Of a stretch of 37,817 nt of DNA, positions 1 to 24,244 are shown in pieces. The position numbers were made by a program, and so were the translations under genes. This DNA is from a virus, in IMG/VR virus record IMGVR_UViG_3300033153_013473, positions 1-37,817 of that record; one strand, written 5' to 3'. Below the pieces are notes generated by a model. That model made no database searches, was not told the DNA's origin, and saw nothing but the letters and a program-made list of their open reading frames with translations. The stretch's first letter is position 1. Every line of letters starts with the position of its first letter.

Positions 1-114
1 CCTGGAAGACTTTCCGGAGGCCGTTTACCCCGTGCGATGCCTGGAGGGCATCGCCAACCGCTGCGCGGGGCAGCTCTACCAGGGCAAGAGCACGTACATC
101 GAGTGGACGGCACG
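1..114. repeat. Terminal direct repeat, copy 1 (circular overlap)
   Basis: Bases 1-114 are identical to 37704-37817. The repeat lies inside the large terminase gene, and the reading frame entering from the right end continues exactly into the left end. This is what an assembly overlap of a circular or circularly permuted molecule looks like, so the unique length is 37,703 bp. Confidence 0.95.
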
Positions 115-1648
115 CGAGATCGTATTTGCCACGATCCCCGGCGCCCGGGCGGGCGGAGCCATCATCAGAGTTGCGGGGATCACGGGCGGAATCCGGGGAA
201 TGAAGCATAAGCGTGCCGACGGACACGCTGCTCGCCCCGATCTGGTCGTTCTGGACGATCCGCAGACCGACCAGTCCGCCCGCAGCCTTTCACAATCCGC
301 AATGCGCGAAAGCGTGCTGGCCGGTGCGGTCCTCGGCCTGGCCGGACCGCGAAAGAAGATATCGGGCATCATGCCCTGTACCGTGATTCGCCCCGGCGAC
401 ATGGCCGATCGCATTCTGGACAGGGATAAGCACCCCGAATGGCAGGGCGAGCGGATGAAGATGATGTATTCCTTGCCGAAGAATGAAAAGCTGTGGGCCA
501 GGTATGCAGAGATCCGCGCGGACAGCTTGAGAATGGGCAGGGGCGGGAAAGAGGCGACTGAATTCTATCGTCAGCACCGCGAACAGATGGACAAGGGCGC
601 GGTTGTCGCATGGCCGGAGCGGCACAACAAGGATGAGCTATCGGGCATCCAGCACGCCATGAACCTGAAGATGCGCGACGAGGCCGCATTCTGGGCCGAA
701 TACCAGAACGAGCCGCTGCCCGAACAGGAACAGCGGGATCGGCTCGATCCTGATGTCGTTGCGGCCAAGACCAACGGACGGCCCCGCAAGCAGGTACCGG
801 CATCTTGCGATCTTCTGACCGCCTTCGTGGATGTGCAGGAGAGGCTGCTCTTCTACGTGGTGGCGGCCTGGGAGTCGAACTTCACGGGCTACGTCGTGGA
901 TTACGGCACCTACCCGGACCAGGGGCGAGCGCGGTTTACCAGCCGGGATGCTCAGCGCACCTTGCGCCGCGCTCACCGGGGAACGGGCGTGGAGGGAGCG
1001 ATATATGCAGGCCTGGAAGTGCTGATAAAGGGCCTCGCCGGGACCGAATGGCCACGAGAGGATGGGACTGTCATGCGCATCGGGCTCTGCCTGGTGGATC
1101 AGGGCTGGAAGACCGATGTGGTGCACCAGTTCTGCCGGCAGAGCGAACATGCCGCGATACTGATGCCGGCGCGGGGACATGGTGTGACCGCTTCGCAGAA
1201 ACCGATCAACGAATACGATCGCAAGCGTGGCGACAGGATCGGTCACCACTGGTGGATTCCCTCCGTCACGAAGAAGCGAACGCTGCGGCATGTCGAGGTT
1301 GACACGAACTACTGGAAAAGCTTTGTGGAGGAGCGTTTTCGCACGGCGATCGGCGATCCAGGGTGCCTGTCCCTTTTCGGCAGGAAAGCCGACCTGCATC
1401 GCTTGTTTGCAGAGCACATAACGGCCGAATATCGGGTGACGACATCGGGGCGGGGCCGAACCGTGGACGAGTGGAAGCTCCCGCCGAACCAGCCCGATAA
1501 TCACTGGTTTGACTGCCTGGTCGGCTGCGCGGCGGCAGCGTCCATGCGCGGCATCGCACTGACGACCATGATCGGGGGCAGGTCGCAAGAGGCGGTTCGG
1601 AAACCCCTCAAGTTGTCGGAACTTCAGCGGCGGAAGTGGGGGCGATGA
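1..1648 (+). CDS. terL: Terminase large subunit, 3' part (continues from 37084-37817)
   Basis: This is the C-terminal 538+ residues of a lambda gpA-like large terminase, the ATP-driven motor that cuts phage DNA and pumps it into the prohead. Joined across the circular junction the whole protein is 755 residues (start 37084, stop 1648). This part carries a Walker B-like LVVLDD stretch (about residues 288-293 of the joined protein), followed by the nuclease region with acidic residues in AFVDVQ and DCLVGCAAAASMRG near the end. The Walker A motif is in the other piece. The stop overlaps the next start (ATGA at 1645-1648), so the zinc-ribbon gene is translationally coupled. The gene is broken only by the window ends. 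Confidence 0.93.
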   Translation, partial: LEDFPEAVYPVRCLEGIANRCAGQLYQGKSTYIEWTAREIVFATIPGARAGGAIIRVAGITGGIRGMKHKRADGHAARPDLVVLDDPQTDQSARSLSQSAMRESVLAGAVLGLAGPRKKISGIMPCTVIRPGDMADRILDRDKHPEWQGERMKMMYSLPKNEKLWARYAEIRADSLRMGRGGKEATEFYRQHREQMDKGAVVAWPERHNKDELSGIQHAMNLKMRDEAAFWAEYQNEPLPEQEQRDRLDPDVVAAKTNGRPRKQVPASCDLLTAFVDVQERLLFYVVAAWESNFTGYVVDYGTYPDQGRARFTSRDAQRTLRRAHRGTGVEGAIYAGLEVLIKGLAGTEWPREDGTVMRIGLCLVDQGWKTDVVHQFCRQSEHAAILMPARGHGVTASQKPINEYDRKRGDRIGHHWWIPSVTKKRTLRHVEVDTNYWKSFVEERFRTAIGDPGCLSLFGRKADLHRLFAEHITAEYRVTTSGRGRTVDEWKLPPNQPDNHWFDCLVGCAAAASMRGIALTTMIGGRSQEAVRKPLKLSELQRRKWGR

Positions 1649-1836
1649 GATTGTCTCAGCTACAAAAAGGCGATGAGGAACGGGGCATCTGCTGCCCGAG
1701 GTGCGGCTGCCGACACGTGCCGGTGCTGTACACGCGGCCGAGCATTCTGGGCAAGATCATGCGGCGCCGGGAATGCCGAAACTGCGGGCACAGGTTCACA
1801 ACATTTGAAAAAGCATCGGAGAAAATTGCGGGCTGA
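1645..1836 (+). CDS. NrdR-like zinc-ribbon DNA-binding protein
   Basis: A 63-residue protein made of a single zinc ribbon: CPRC at 17-20, an Arg-rich strand RRREC, RNC to Cys47, then RFTTFE. That last motif and the Cys spacing match the N-terminal zinc ribbon of the ribonucleotide reductase repressor NrdR, but the ATP-cone domain is absent. The start was taken at ATG 1645, overlapping the terL stop; a GTG at 1636 is possible. Stand-alone zinc ribbons in phages (for example P2 Ogr, a different family) act as transcription regulators. Two 16-bp palindromes resembling paired NrdR boxes lie 44 bp downstream, so autoregulation or control of the head operon is inferred. The fold is clear; the role is inference. 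Confidence 0.8.
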   Translation: MRLSQLQKGDEERGICCPRCGCRHVPVLYTRPSILGKIMRRRECRNCGHRFTTFEKASEKIAG

Positions 1837-1879
1837 AACGGCTACTCCGCCCCGCGAAGCCCGCCAAGAAGGGGCCAAA

Positions 1880-1925
1880 GTTACATATATGTAACAAAAA
1901 ACGACCAAAATTACATATCTGTAAC
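1880..1925. promoter_or_regulatory. Paired 16-bp palindromes, NrdR-box-like operators
   Basis: GTTACATATATGTAAC (1880-1895) is a perfect palindrome. ATTACATATCTGTAAC (1910-1925) is a near copy. Each sits in a 21-bp direct repeat beginning CCAAA, and the copies are 30 bp apart (about three helical turns). Known NrdR boxes are 16-bp palindromes with an ATATAT centre, arranged in pairs about three turns apart. The pair lies just downstream of an NrdR-like zinc-ribbon gene and 8 bp upstream of a candidate -35 box. Confidence 0.65.
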
Positions 1926-1933
1926 TGAAGGGG

Positions 1934-1962
1934 TTGCAACAGAACGCAAGTCCGCGCACAAT
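1934..1962 (+). promoter_or_regulatory. Candidate sigma70 promoter for the head operon leader
   Basis: TTGCAA (1934-1939), a 17-bp spacer and CACAAT (1957-1962) give four of six matches in each box. The same GGGTTGCAA -35 context with a 17-bp spacer occurs in the better promoter at 33300-33328. Transcription would start near 1969 and run into the leader hairpin and the portal-capsid genes. Confidence 0.4.
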
Positions 1963-2029
1963 GGAGATAGACAATAGGGCGACGGTGATGCCGAGTGATC
2001 TCCGGCAGATCGTGGAGCCAGGAAGAGTC

Positions 2030-2070
2030 GGGCCGTGTGGGGCCACACACTCACGCGGCCCTTTCTTTTT
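2030..2070 (+). terminator. Intrinsic terminator-like hairpin in the head operon leader
   Basis: GGGCCGTGTG (2030-2039) can pair with CACGCGGCCC (2052-2061), ten pairs with one U-G, and is followed by TTTCTTTTT (2062-2070). It lies between the palindrome pair/promoter and the first head gene. It would either end the terminase/zinc-ribbon transcript or attenuate a leader RNA of about 100 nt. The rest of the 269-bp gap 1837-2105 holds no credible gene. Confidence 0.6.
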
Positions 2071-2105
2071 GGCTTCGTGCTACAAGGCAAAGTAGAGGGA
2101 AGGCA

Positions 2106-2303
2106 ATGCCGGACGAAGTTCAGACGGCGATAGAGGAGGGCGCGCAGAAGCCCAAGCGGATGCGAGGCGACGAGGGCGAGGTCGAGCAGCATTCGCTCAA
2201 AGATCTGATCGAGGCGGATCGGTATCTCTCCAGCAAGGCCGCGGTCGCCAAGCAGCACCGAGGCCTCCGCTGGAACGTGCTCAAGCATCCTGGAGCGGCC
2301 TGA
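2106..2303 (+). CDS. Small conserved head protein between terminase and portal (gpW position)
   Basis: A 65-residue charged protein whose C-terminal half, QHSLKDLIEADRYLSSKAAV then RGLRWNVLKHPGAA, is typical of a short protein found between large terminase and portal in gpA-type phages. By size and position it corresponds to lambda gpW, a head-completion protein that caps the portal, but I cannot show homology. The start at 2106 has a GAGGGA ribosome site, and the TGATG overlap couples it to the portal gene. Upstream codons in the same frame run through the terminator hairpin and are not part of the gene. Confidence 0.7.
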   Translation: MPDEVQTAIEEGAQKPKRMRGDEGEVEQHSLKDLIEADRYLSSKAAVAKQHRGLRWNVLKHPGAA

Positions 2304-3778
2304 TGGCTCTATTCGGCTGGTTGCGGCGGTCAAAACAGAAACCACGCCAGACCCTGCGGGAACGCCAGGCGGCTCTGCCGCTGAAGCGCTTGCGGCTGCG
2401 GGCAACTTATGACGCGGCCCAATCCACGACCCAGACCAGCCGTCACTGGGCGGCGGCCGACGCGCTGAGCGCGGACCGTGCAAATAGTTACAGCGTTCGC
2501 AAGACGCTGCGGCAACGGGCCCGTTATGAGGTCGCCAACAATTCCTATGCGCGTGGCATCCTGGAGACCTATGTGAATGATGTCGTCGGGACAGGTCCCC
2601 GCCTTCAGGTGCTCACAGACGACGAGGAGTTGAACGATGCCGTCGAGGCGGCCTGGAGGGAATGGAGCCTGGCCGTGAGCCTGGCCCGAAAACTTCGCAC
2701 GCTCCACCGGGCGCGCGTCTGCGACGGCGAGGGATTCGCCCACATGCGAACAAATCCGAAAATTGACTGCCCCGTCCAGCTTGACCTCGCACTGATCGAA
2801 TGTGATCGCGTCGCATCGCCACAACTCACCCTCGACGCGAAAAACGTGGACGGCGTGATTCTGGATGAGTATGGCAATGTCGAGGAATACCAGGTGCTGA
2901 AAGGCCACCCAGGGGGCGCTGACTTCTCCGTCGGCTACGAGCACGATGTCATTCCCGCCCAATACATGCTGCACTGGTTCCGGATGGACAGGCCGGAGCA
3001 ACACAGGGGCGTGCCGGAAATTATGCCGGCCCTCGAGCTTTTCGGGCAATTACGGCGATACACGCAGGCCGTCCTGAGCGCTGCCGAGACGGCGGCGGAT
3101 ATAGCCGCGATTCTCTGGACCGATGCCCCCGCCGATGGCGAGGCGGAAGTCGTTGAGCCGCTCGATGCGATTGAGCTTCAGCGTAACATGATGCTCTCCA
3201 TGCCGGCCGGCTGGCGCATGGATCAGATGAAAACCGAACATCCGCCGACAACCTATCCTGATTTCAAGCAAGAGGTTCTCAAAGAGATTGCCCGCTGCGT
3301 GGCCATGCCCTACAACCTGGCCGCCGGAGACAGCAGTAAATCCAACTTCGCGTCCGGGCGCCTCGATCACCAGGGCTACCAGAGGATGATATCCGTCACG
3401 CAGTTCGACATGGGGCAGGAAATTGTTAATGCGATCTTGACGGAATGGCTCGCCGAAGCGCGAATGGCTTACGGATTTGATCTGCCGGCGAGCTTTGAAC
3501 ACGTCTGGTTCTGGGACGGCCCGAACTACGCGATCAATCCGCTGCAGGAGGCGAAGGCTCAAGCGACGCGCTTGAAGAATCACACTACGACGTTCGCGCA
3601 TGAGTACGCTCGCCAGGGGCGGGACTGGCAAAAGGAGTTCCGGCAGTGCGCCAGGGAGCTTCGCGAGATGCAGAAACTTGGGCTGCCACAGCCGGAGCCC
3701 GAAAAGGGTGTCGCGGCAGAAGCCAGTGATGCCATTGAAGAATTGATGCAGGAGGTGGAGGATGCCTTATCCAAGTGA
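2303..3778 (+). CDS. Portal protein, lambda gpB family
   Basis: A 491-residue portal protein. Twelve copies would form the ring at one capsid vertex through which terminase pumps DNA and to which the tail attaches. Lambda-type features are visible: a basic N-terminus, the NNSYARGILETYVNDVVG segment near residue 80, RVCDGEGFAHM, the FRMDRPEQHRGVPEI segment near residue 230, and NLAAGDSSKSNFASGR in the crown/stem region. The length is usual for the family. The start overlaps the preceding stop (TGATG) and the 3' end overlaps the protease-capsid gene by 17 bp, the standard head-operon order. Confidence 0.92.
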   Translation: MALFGWLRRSKQKPRQTLRERQAALPLKRLRLRATYDAAQSTTQTSRHWAAADALSADRANSYSVRKTLRQRARYEVANNSYARGILETYVNDVVGTGPRLQVLTDDEELNDAVEAAWREWSLAVSLARKLRTLHRARVCDGEGFAHMRTNPKIDCPVQLDLALIECDRVASPQLTLDAKNVDGVILDEYGNVEEYQVLKGHPGGADFSVGYEHDVIPAQYMLHWFRMDRPEQHRGVPEIMPALELFGQLRRYTQAVLSAAETAADIAAILWTDAPADGEAEVVEPLDAIELQRNMMLSMPAGWRMDQMKTEHPPTTYPDFKQEVLKEIARCVAMPYNLAAGDSSKSNFASGRLDHQGYQRMISVTQFDMGQEIVNAILTEWLAEARMAYGFDLPASFEHVWFWDGPNYAINPLQEAKAQATRLKNHTTTFAHEYARQGRDWQKEFRQCARELREMQKLGLPQPEPEKGVAAEASDAIEELMQEVEDALSK

Positions 3779-6452
3779 ACATTCAGCTCGTTTGAGAGAT
3801 CCGGATCGCTACGAGAAGTTCCGCCGCCAGAACGACAAGTTTGGTTCCGGAATACACGCCATCTGGGGCATCACCGCGGAGGGGAAGGCGGAGCTTCAGG
3901 CCATCCGGTTTGATGCGAGCACGTTTACGGCGGCCGACGCGAAGAAGTGGCTGAAGGAGCACGGTTACAAGCCGATCCGCTTCGAGCCTGCCAGCGATAA
4001 GAAAGCTCAAGCTCGGGGAAGCACAAAATACGAGTGCGAATGTCTTGACTGCGGCGGCCGTCTGAGAAGCGAGCAGCACTGCCGGGACATCAGGTGTCCC
4101 CAATGCGGCGGAGAGATGCGCCGCGTGGAACGGCCCGGCCCAGGGCAGCGAACGCCGGCCGATGGGTCCGGGAACAACGGCCTGGAGGCGGCCTTTTCGC
4201 ACAATTCCAGCACCGATGAGGATGAGCCGGACTGGGCCTCGGTGGACAAGACGAAACTTCCGCGGGCCGCTTTCGCCTGGCAGGGCGAGCCTGGCAAGAA
4301 ATCCACGTGGGGCTATGCGCATCACTGGGTGAAAGGGGGGAAGTCCCTCGACGAGAACGGCATCTACGAGGATGGCGTTCTTCTGCTCCACCGGCAGGGC
4401 CTGGGTGTGGCCTATGCCGCCGCAATGGGCGCACGGACCGGCAAGAAGGCGGCAAATGTCGTGATTGACCACCTGGAGAGGCATCGCAAGGACATCGGCA
4501 CGGGGGAAAAGGTAGCGCAATCCGGCGTGCAGCTCGAGCTGGAGGCCGCTGGAAGGGTCAGGGTCCACGGCGTGGCATACAGCGGCGGCAAGATGAAGCT
4601 GTCCGGCTGGCGATACCCGGTCGTTGTTGACCTGGCCGGTCTGGAGATACCGGAGAAAGTCCCGCTGTTGACAAATCATGAGAATCGCCCCGGTGCGCGC
4701 ATCGGCCTGGTCAGCGCGCACGTCGAGGGAGACAGGCTCCTGTTAGAGGGCGAGGTGCTCTCGAGCAGCGAGGTTGCGCAGGGTGTGCTTGAGCAGGCCC
4801 GTGCGGGTGGCGACTGGCAGCTCTCAATCGGCGCCGAGGTGGAAGAGAGCGAGCTGGTTCGGGGCAAACGGGAGGTGAACGGGCAGGAGCAAACTGGACC
4901 GTTCTATTGTGTGACGAAAGCAATATTGCGGGAAGTTTCTGTGTTACCGGTAGGAGCCGATCATTCCAGCAAGTTGCAGGTGGCGGCTCGATTCGTTTTG
5001 GAAGGAGGGAATCAGATGGAGTTTGAAAAATGGCTTGAAGCAAAGGGCCTCGATGTGGCAGCGATGTCGGAGGACAAGATCGCTGAGCTGAAGGCTCAGT
5101 GGAAGGCGGAGATGAAGGCCAAAGAGCCGGATCCCCGCCCGGAGGCTGGAGATCTCGAGGCGGCTGCCGTGGCCGACCTCCGCAAGGCCTCAGCGGAAGA
5201 GTCGAAAAGGATCGCCAGGGTGCGCCAACTGTGCGCCGGAAAGCATCCGGACATCGAGGCGAAGGCCATCGAGGAGGGATGGGACGAGACGAAGGTTGAG
5301 CTGGAGGTCCTGCGGGCCAACCGGCCGAAGGGACTCTACGTGCAGTCGGGGACTCGTGACGCGACCCCGAAGATCCTGGAGGCTGCCATTCGGCTGGGAG
5401 GCGTTGAAAAAAGCGAGGTCGTCGAGGAGGTGTACGATGAGGACATCCTGGAGCGCGCTGATGCGTTTCGCGGCCTGGGCCTCAAGCGGCTGATCGCCAT
5501 TTCCTGCGAGCTGGACGGCGTGACGCCGCCCATGCCTTCGGCGGGAGACCAGGATTACCTGGAAGCCGCCTTCAGCACGACCACGCTCAGCGGCATCCTG
5601 GGGAACGTGGCAAACAAGGTGGCGCTGTCTGCGTACAAGAGCATTACGAGCGCTGCCCGGCTCGTCGCTCAGAAGCTGACGGCCAACGACTTCAAAACGC
5701 ACACCGGCTACCGGCTGACCGGTAATAGCGTTTTTGACGAGGTAGGAGAAGGAGGAGAGCTGAAGCACTTCGATCTGAATGAGCAGAGCTACAGCTTCTC
5801 GGTCGACACCTACGGGCGGATCCTTGCGTTGACGCGCCAGCAGATCATCAACGATGACCTGAACGTGTTCACGCAGATTCCCCAGATGTTCGGGCGCGGT
5901 GCGGCCTTGAAGCTGGAGAGCCTGTTCTGGACGCTGGTGCTGGCCAATACGGATAGCTTCTTCAAGAGCGGTAATGGCAACCTCATCACCGCTACCCTGG
6001 GCTCTTCCGGCCTGTCGTCCGCTGTCGCCAAGCTGATGAAGCAGACCGATTCGGATGGCAATCCGATCGTGCTGAATCCGAAGTTCCTGGTTGTGCCGCC
6101 CGAGCTGTTCGCAACGGCACAGGAGCTTTACACTTCGAAGACGGTCATTCTGGGCGGCACCACGAAGACGCCCAATGCTAACATACACCAGGGCAAGTAC
6201 CAGCCCATCCCGAGCCCGTACCTGAGCAACTCGAACTATACGGGCTACAGCACGACCGCCTGGTATCTGTTTGCCGATCCGGCAGAGGTGGCGGCATTCG
6301 GCATCGCCTACCTGCGCGGCAACGAGACGCCAACGTTCGAGCCGGCGACTCTGGCTGGCGATGTGCTCGGCAAGGGCTGGCGCGGCTACTGGGACATCGG
6401 CGTCTGCCAGATTGATCATCGGGGCGCCGTGAAGTCTACAGGTGCTGGCTAA
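3762..6452 (+). CDS. Prohead protease - scaffold - major capsid fusion protein
   Basis: An 896-residue protein with several head functions in one frame. Residues 1-80 form a small N-terminal domain. Residues 90-118 contain a zinc ribbon (Cys92/94/97, Cys107, Cys112/115). Residues 155-245 form a second conserved domain. Residues 262-412 form a Mu I-like prohead protease with candidate catalytic His306 (LTNHEN) and Ser355 (WQLSIG). Residues 419-520 are charged and helical, scaffold-like. The remainder resembles the Mu major head subunit (gpT), with the ALTRQQIINDDL motif. In Mu and lambda these are separate or nested products, so self-cleavage by the protease is expected to release the capsid protein. 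A strong internal ribosome site at 5002-5018 could also make the capsid part alone. Confidence 0.88.
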   Translation: MPYPSEHSARLRDPDRYEKFRRQNDKFGSGIHAIWGITAEGKAELQAIRFDASTFTAADAKKWLKEHGYKPIRFEPASDKKAQARGSTKYECECLDCGGRLRSEQHCRDIRCPQCGGEMRRVERPGPGQRTPADGSGNNGLEAAFSHNSSTDEDEPDWASVDKTKLPRAAFAWQGEPGKKSTWGYAHHWVKGGKSLDENGIYEDGVLLLHRQGLGVAYAAAMGARTGKKAANVVIDHLERHRKDIGTGEKVAQSGVQLELEAAGRVRVHGVAYSGGKMKLSGWRYPVVVDLAGLEIPEKVPLLTNHENRPGARIGLVSAHVEGDRLLLEGEVLSSSEVAQGVLEQARAGGDWQLSIGAEVEESELVRGKREVNGQEQTGPFYCVTKAILREVSVLPVGADHSSKLQVAARFVLEGGNQMEFEKWLEAKGLDVAAMSEDKIAELKAQWKAEMKAKEPDPRPEAGDLEAAAVADLRKASAEESKRIARVRQLCAGKHPDIEAKAIEEGWDETKVELEVLRANRPKGLYVQSGTRDATPKILEAAIRLGGVEKSEVVEEVYDEDILERADAFRGLGLKRLIAISCELDGVTPPMPSAGDQDYLEAAFSTTTLSGILGNVANKVALSAYKSITSAARLVAQKLTANDFKTHTGYRLTGNSVFDEVGEGGELKHFDLNEQSYSFSVDTYGRILALTRQQIINDDLNVFTQIPQMFGRGAALKLESLFWTLVLANTDSFFKSGNGNLITATLGSSGLSSAVAKLMKQTDSDGNPIVLNPKFLVVPPELFATAQELYTSKTVILGGTTKTPNANIHQGKYQPIPSPYLSNSNYTGYSTTAWYLFADPAEVAAFGIAYLRGNETPTFEPATLAGDVLGKGWRGYWDIGVCQIDHRGAVKSTGAG
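5002..5018 (+). promoter_or_regulatory. Internal ribosome site and in-frame ATG for scaffold-capsid product
   Basis: AAGGAGG at 5002-5008 is followed after 7 nt by ATG at 5016, codon 419 of the protease-capsid fusion and in the same frame. Initiation here would give a 478-residue scaffold-capsid protein without the protease, like the nested lambda C/Nu3 genes. It falls exactly at the domain boundary between protease and scaffold. Confidence 0.65.
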
Positions 6453-24069: not shown

Positions 24070-24193
24070 ACACCAAAGCGGGGAACATCTCCTTACTTGC
24101 CCAAGCTCGGCCAAAGCGGAGCACGTCCACAAGCTCCTATGAAGCAAAGACTTATCTTCCAAAGGCTTTGTCCGTCCGGCCATAGGACAAGAA

Positions 24194-24244
24194 CAACTTT
24201 TCGGATCCGAAGTCCGATGCTCTTTCCAGTTGAGCTACGGGCGC
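24194..24244 (-). other. attP: 5' half of a tRNA-Arg(TCG) gene, probable attP
   Basis: On the minus strand from 24244 down, the sequence begins GCGCCCGTAGCTCAACTGG. A D-arm follows, then an anticodon arm TCGGA-CTTCGGA-TCCGA with anticodon TCG. It then runs about eight more bases and stops matching. There is no T-arm and no 3' strand to pair with GCGCCCG, so the gene is not complete. It lies 31 bp beyond the stop of the minus-strand integrase, the classic place for an attachment site. The rest of 24070-24275 shows nothing. Confidence 0.65.

Follow-up and report, generated by a model that had tools for sequence, protein, structure and literature searches.

A stand-alone NrdR-type zinc ribbon and its palindromic box as a probable switch from terminase to head operon in Planctomycetota phages

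The window analyzed here is a 37.8-kb linear virus record (37,817 nucleotides), the first bases of which fall inside a GpA-type terminase gene and the phage relatives of which are Planctomycetota prophages. It encodes a small protein that consists of an NrdR-type zinc ribbon without the rest of NrdR (ZnR), and we consider it probable that this protein is a phage regulator with a box through which the terminase operon controls the head operon, most likely by turning it on. The genes and sites concerned follow one another from the terminase large subunit (TerL) through ZnR, two palindromes, a weak promoter and a structured leader to the gpW-position, portal and protease-capsid genes, as listed here.

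1–1648 (+), TerL, GpA type (Pfam GpA_nuclease, 1.6e-25), truncated by the start of the record
1645–1836 (+), ZnR, stand-alone NrdR-type zinc ribbon of 63 residues, with a start codon overlapping the TerL stop (ATGA)
1880–1895 (no strand), ZnR box 1, GTTACATATATGTAAC, equivalent in position to the single box of relatives
1910–1925 (no strand), ZnR box 2, ATTACATATCTGTAAC, shared with relative L020 only; 14-bp spacer between the boxes
1934–1962 (+), weak sigma70-like promoter TTGCAA-N17-CACAAT, predicted from sequence, with a putative start near 1969
1969–2072 (+), structured leader RNA with a terminator-like hairpin at 2030–2061 (structure z-score −4.6)
2106–2303 (+), gpW-position head protein of 65 residues, heading the operon presumed to be under this control, in an order conserved in relatives
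2303–3778 (+), portal protein (PHROG 21 portal, E = 3.9e-66)
3762–6452 (+), protease-capsid protein (Pfam Phage_capsid_4, 4.6e-45)

Farther along the window, a weak tRNA match (24171–24244 on the minus strand; 29.9 bits against a gathering score of 29) adjoins the integrase gene and is a possible attachment site.

The protein translated from 1645–1836 (+), MRLSQLQKGDEERGICCPRCGCRHVPVLYTRPSILGKIMRRRECRNCGHRFTTFEKASEKIAG, matches Pfam Zn_ribbon_NrdR with E = 3.2e-11 (43.4 bits against a cut-off of 27.2), whereas against TIGR00244, the NrdR equivalog, it reaches 34.7 bits, far under the cut-off of 124.65. No ATP-cone was found in it by Pfam search, the chain stopping eight residues after TTFE. 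The comparison with the HMM of the NrdR zinc-ribbon family thus bears out the sequence-only reading of this DNA, which had described a 63-residue NrdR-like zinc ribbon standing alone. An AF2 model built from the single sequence (mean pLDDT 72) agrees, its top five PDB hits all being NrdR ribbons (query TM-score up to 0.63). Specificity in NrdR was assigned to D15 and R17 in the cryo-EM structure of its DNA complex (PMC9110341); the equivalent reading positions of ZnR are Y29 and R31, so that D15 of NrdR is not retained. Because the ZnR start codon lies inside the TerL stop codon, the two genes are probably co-translated. Within 1609–1668, the end of TerL (LKLSELQRRKWGR) and the beginning of ZnR (MRLSQLQK) have a short motif in common, which recurs in the ZnRs of L062 and L078; it is possibly a shared docking peptide or the relic of a duplication. 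No match to ZnR was found among 50,697 records of isolated phages, and no earlier description of such a unit was found in the part of the literature that our search covered.

The two palindromes that the same reading had placed 30 bp apart after the zinc-ribbon gene are present. Each is 16 bp long and of GTT-N10-AAC type, the 30 bp is measured centre to centre, and they are the only such sites in the 37.8 kb (four strand-matches against 0.06 expected, with 0 of 100 shuffles reaching four); they are non-random. The further claim that they resemble NrdR boxes did not hold, since the NrdR consensus is matched in the AT centre only, and no NrdR box with up to three mismatches was found in the window. 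What they do share with NrdR sites is their spacing: NrdRs bind box pairs with spacers of 14–17 bp, one ribbon per half of a 16-bp box (PMC12051234), and the window spacer of 14 bp lies inside that range. By this analogy the natural reading is a ZnR dimer on each box, even though the ATP-cone that assembles NrdR is missing; two copies would sit on one palindrome, each ribbon reading a half-site with residues 29 and 31. Two such dimers would be seated three helical turns apart in the window. The exact pair is restricted to the window and its near relative L020, box 2 is not conserved, and most relatives have a single box; the pair is a local doubling. When sequences upstream of gpW were read, a second ZnR box was also seen in L258 (about 20 bp from the first) and L271 (about 105 bp).

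The link between ZnR and box appeared already in a first outward scan, in which viral contigs were searched with the palindrome pair alone and the protein was not used. Among 55 loci with a TTACA pair, an NrdR-type ribbon was present in L007, L020, L040 and the distant L035. In the first three the ribbon directly adjoins the pair, and both lie between the TerL and portal genes. Of these, L020 and L040 are syntenic with the window (TerL 67% identical), and L007 is a more distant phage with a different terminase. A control scan with another palindrome pair (TATCA) found an NrdR-type ribbon in none of 62 loci. As a separate observation, TTACA-N4-TGTAA palindromes at an exact 31-bp spacing occur inside longer repeats (AACTGTTGTATTTTACAAAAATGTAA...) in L014, L017, L018, L028, L039, L045, L048, L053, L054 and L057, and no NrdR-type ribbon was found in these ten loci.

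Searching with the protein gave 80 relatives, nearly all of them ordered TerL-ZnR-(interval)-gpW-portal-capsid. A strict test for a matching pair was positive for only the window and L020 among 75 distinct loci, from which we had considered the palindromes private to the window phage. That view was overturned, since the intervals between ZnR and gpW hold a diverged 16-bp palindrome: most contain one imperfect copy, such as CAAGTTCTACATGCGTAACGAT. Relatives therefore keep the gene without the exact palindrome sequence, which goes against the earlier expectation of shared palindromes, but they keep a diverged version in the equivalent place, which agrees with it. A fixed GTT-N10-AAC rule finds a site in 31 of 73 intervals (4.8% of shuffles), and a weight matrix places 37 of the 73 above the 99% shuffle limit. 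The site lies roughly 90–130 or 200–250 bp from gpW in most loci, a distance that is also kept in many loci with 1–3 kb of other genes between site and ZnR, and a pattern search of 12 relatives' records (up to 52 kb) yielded one convincing site per phage, at the TerL-gpW junction.

Phages without ZnR were brought in through a second collection, which had the gpW protein as its seed. The matrix trained on the first set, which has a few contigs in common with the second, found the box in 10 of 33 loci with ZnR and 0 of 29 without, and a training-free palindrome test (arm of at least 8) was positive in 38% of ZnR loci (10% of shuffles) against 0 of 29. With all half-site variants allowed at the 99% shuffle limit, a box is present in 79 of 98 loci that have ZnR but in just 1 of 29 that lack it (p = 1.6e-14). 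Near relatives inflate counts of this kind, but the ZnR-less loci are spread over different regions of both the TerL tree and the portal tree. About a fifth of the ZnR loci have no detectable box.

The base sequence of the box follows the identity of the ribbon residues at the positions known from NrdR. Half-site bases are numbered d1–d8 outward from the dyad. Ribbons with V-x-Y-T-R have GTAAC, GGAAC, AGAAC or AGACA at d4–d8 (d6 = A), and those with T-T-[H/N]-T-E have AGCA, a TAGCA-type half. This rule was written down as a prediction before the scan with E-type ribbons, and it held, about 46 of 53 distinct new loci having TTGCTA-N4-TAGCA-like boxes near the gpW gene. Over 105 non-redundant loci (70 + 35), box type and residues separate completely, and mutual information with box type peaks at the equivalents of D15 and R17 and at their direct neighbours. 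A palindrome search independent of the half-site list adds two further classes: all seven Y-[LV]-K ribbons are accompanied by a TCGATCTATCGA-type box (ATCGA half), and the D and E ribbons (D/E..R) of L129 and L397 have the boxes CCCCTATATCTAGTGG and CCCCTACATGTAGTGG, with the TAGTG half known from the NrdR box. Counted by half-site in 129 non-redundant loci, the residue at position 15 (NrdR numbering) pairs with d6 as follows: tyrosine with A in 169 of 176, tryptophan with A in 2 of 2, asparagine with C in 18 of 18, histidine with C in 47 of 58, and aspartate or glutamate with T or G in 4 of 4. Prophage ribbons with readable boxes obey the residue rule except for one AGCA half-site in L490 (YTR), and the distant L007 is a second misfit, with aspartate at position 15 and a TTACA-type box. 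The H/N..E ribbons are closely related to each other, so many of the agreeing loci are not independent, and the independent changes of specificity may number only a handful.

Protein and box also move together. When box types are placed on the TerL and portal trees, several switches between them are needed, and well supported branches force at least five (TerL) and at least nine (portal) changes for the TAGCA type; these count cassette transfers, not fresh inventions of specificity. In TerL and gpW the DNA of the sisters L230 (YTR, TGTCTACCGGTGGACC) and L372 (HTE, TCGCCATATGTAGCAC) is about 90% identical, and over ZnR, box and promoter it cannot be aligned; L280 and L374 have leader and gpW in common but differ in ZnR and box. 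As judged from these comparisons, ZnR and box pass between sister phages as a single cassette, the behaviour expected of a protein with its own operator. Taken together, the co-occurrence of box and ZnR, the covariation of residue and base, and the cassette exchange make it very probable that ZnR binds these boxes, and the proposal that the ribbon uses its own operator pair fits palindromes that behave as its cognate sites in all three respects.

The promoter that had been claimed after the palindromes is present, though weak: TTGCAA (1934–1939) and CACAAT (1957–1962) carry 8 of 12 consensus bases, a promoter scan of the window made no call at 1934–1962, and L020 retains the element as TTGCAA-N17-AATAAT. 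Counted from the putative start at about 1969, the boxes lie near −82 (box 1) and near −52 (box 2). Across relatives, matches to a −10/start pattern that was devised after the sequences had been seen cluster at dyad +47–49, +56–60 and +68–70 (16 of 102 positions, which take up 43 of the 47 matches), and the same pattern shows no excess in ZnR-less relatives (4 against 5.35 expected). Some relatives (L101, L132 and L066) have near-consensus promoters.

Between promoter and gpW gene lies a leader of about 100–150 nt, found in the window (1969–2072), in L065, L077, L106, L136, L280, L282, L374, L399, L419 and L425, and in others. Its elements are a closing stem GGGCGA/TCGCCC, a hairpin whose loop reads TGATC or TAGCTA, and a second, long hairpin of terminator-like form, which in the window (2030–2061) is strong. 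Compensatory changes occur in 14 of 18 predicted pairs (17 sequences), and an Rfam search of the leader gave no match at the gathering threshold. The leader may attenuate transcription of the head operon or be a small RNA. Several relatives have a tRNA gene between leader and gpW gene, namely L077 (2671–2743), L414 (4546–4617), L397 (2085–2158), L074 (476–547), L376 (3552–3621; tRNA-Met CAT) and L088 (6743–6817; tRNA-Ile TAT), and type II hammerhead ribozymes were found in L374 (458–522) and L088 (886–953), both on the minus strand.

The boxes do sit in front of the head operon, as the suggestion that ZnR controls this operon would have it. Upstream distances that differ by whole helical turns usually indicate an activator facing RNA polymerase, and since the box-promoter distances are helically phased and lie upstream, activation of the head operon is the favoured sign. 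ZnR, probably made along with terminase, would occupy the box just upstream of the weak promoter. Acting in class I-like fashion from around −60, −71 or −82, it would drive the structured leader and the gpW-portal-capsid operon behind it. In CRP-type class I activation, too, the site precedes the promoter at distances in helical phase; the likeness is one of site placement, a working analogy, the CRP protein being unrelated to ZnR. The post-hoc pattern, the near-consensus promoters and the fact that NrdR is a repressor make this sign of regulation a tentative one. That ZnR instead represses the head-operon promoter, delaying the head genes (for example, in the prophage or early in infection), is nevertheless unlikely: NrdR sharply kinks its boxes (PMC9110341) and the promoters of L101, L132 and L066 should need no activator, but the boxes lie upstream of the promoter at phased distances and not over it, the window promoter is weak, and NrdR represses as a tetramer held by the ATP-cones that ZnR lacks.

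The adjoining, probably co-translated TerL and ZnR genes, the single box per phage and the resemblance of the ZnR N-terminus to the TerL tail would also suit a role in DNA packaging, with ZnR as a terminase accessory marking a cos or pac-like site beside TerL. We regard this as improbable, as relatives with 45–65% identical TerL have neither ZnR nor box, yet packaging would still need its site, and the box keeps its distance to the promoter-like element and the gpW gene, not to TerL. Still less credible is that the palindromes serve some other regulator with which ZnR merely travels as a neighbour; the ZnR-box link does rest on sequence comparison, but the covariation falls on the very positions with which NrdR reads DNA, and half-sites like those of NrdR accompany the D/E ribbons.

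The terminase was found in 56 of 392 Planctomycetota genomes. Host NrdR has V-[IV]-D-[ST]-R in nine of nine genomes checked, keeping D15 and R17, and eight of those nine contain further, weaker phage-type matches. The TTACA pair was also considered as a general NrdR-type host operator and rejected, its 17 matches in genome contigs lying at assorted cellular sites with no nrd gene among the neighbours listed. That ZnR titrates or mimics host NrdR, as the sequence-only reading had offered, and so raises dNTP supply, has the homology of the ribbon in its favour but is highly implausible, because host NrdRs keep D15 while ZnR has Y29 and a different half-site, the window has no NrdR box, and the box evolves together with the phage ribbon.

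The preferred reading, a ribbon-only switch acting through its own box, borrows from NrdR the zinc-ribbon fold, the CxxC...CxxC...TTxE and RRR motifs, the 16-bp palindromic box, the two positions that would read it and, in the window, a pair of boxes with a 14-bp spacer. It departs from NrdR in lacking the ATP-cone and nucleotide sensing, in having other, usually single, boxes, and in placing them before phage head genes, whereas NrdR boxes precede nrd genes. The late activators P2 Ogr and P4 Delta act at a palindromic site TGT-N12-ACA (PMC3931495) and are likewise small zinc-binding phage proteins with a palindromic site tied to late operons. Membership of ZnR in that family was rejected (Ogr_Delta profile E = 0.52, 10.7 against 26.3 bits), the second cysteine pair being CX2C and the arrangement CX2C...CX2C instead of CX2CX22CX4C. 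Sites of their kind, several TGT-N12-ACA per phage, were rejected too: the window has GTT-N10-AAC and the 12 relatives' records one convincing TerL-gpW site each, and ZnR has its gene next to this one target, whereas Ogr and Delta serve four late promoters.

Taken as a single claim, it is about an even call that these proteins form an undescribed large family of NrdR-ribbon-only phage factors that take their specificity from the NrdR residues (residue 15 setting d6: Y/W for A, H/N for C, D/E for T or G), are exchanged with their box as a cassette, and in Planctomycetota phages switch on the head operon from upstream sites at helically phased distances. For DNA reading by NrdR itself, a single cryo-EM complex with a single box type is the main source of knowledge. 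The present family supplies many natural pairs of protein and box, in at least four specificities, along with sister phages in which both have been swapped, which makes the recognition code of a minimal DNA-binding module of about 45 residues directly testable. It would add a class of phage regulator beside Ogr and Delta and suggests a way in which one uncultured group of Planctomycetota prophages may time its head genes.
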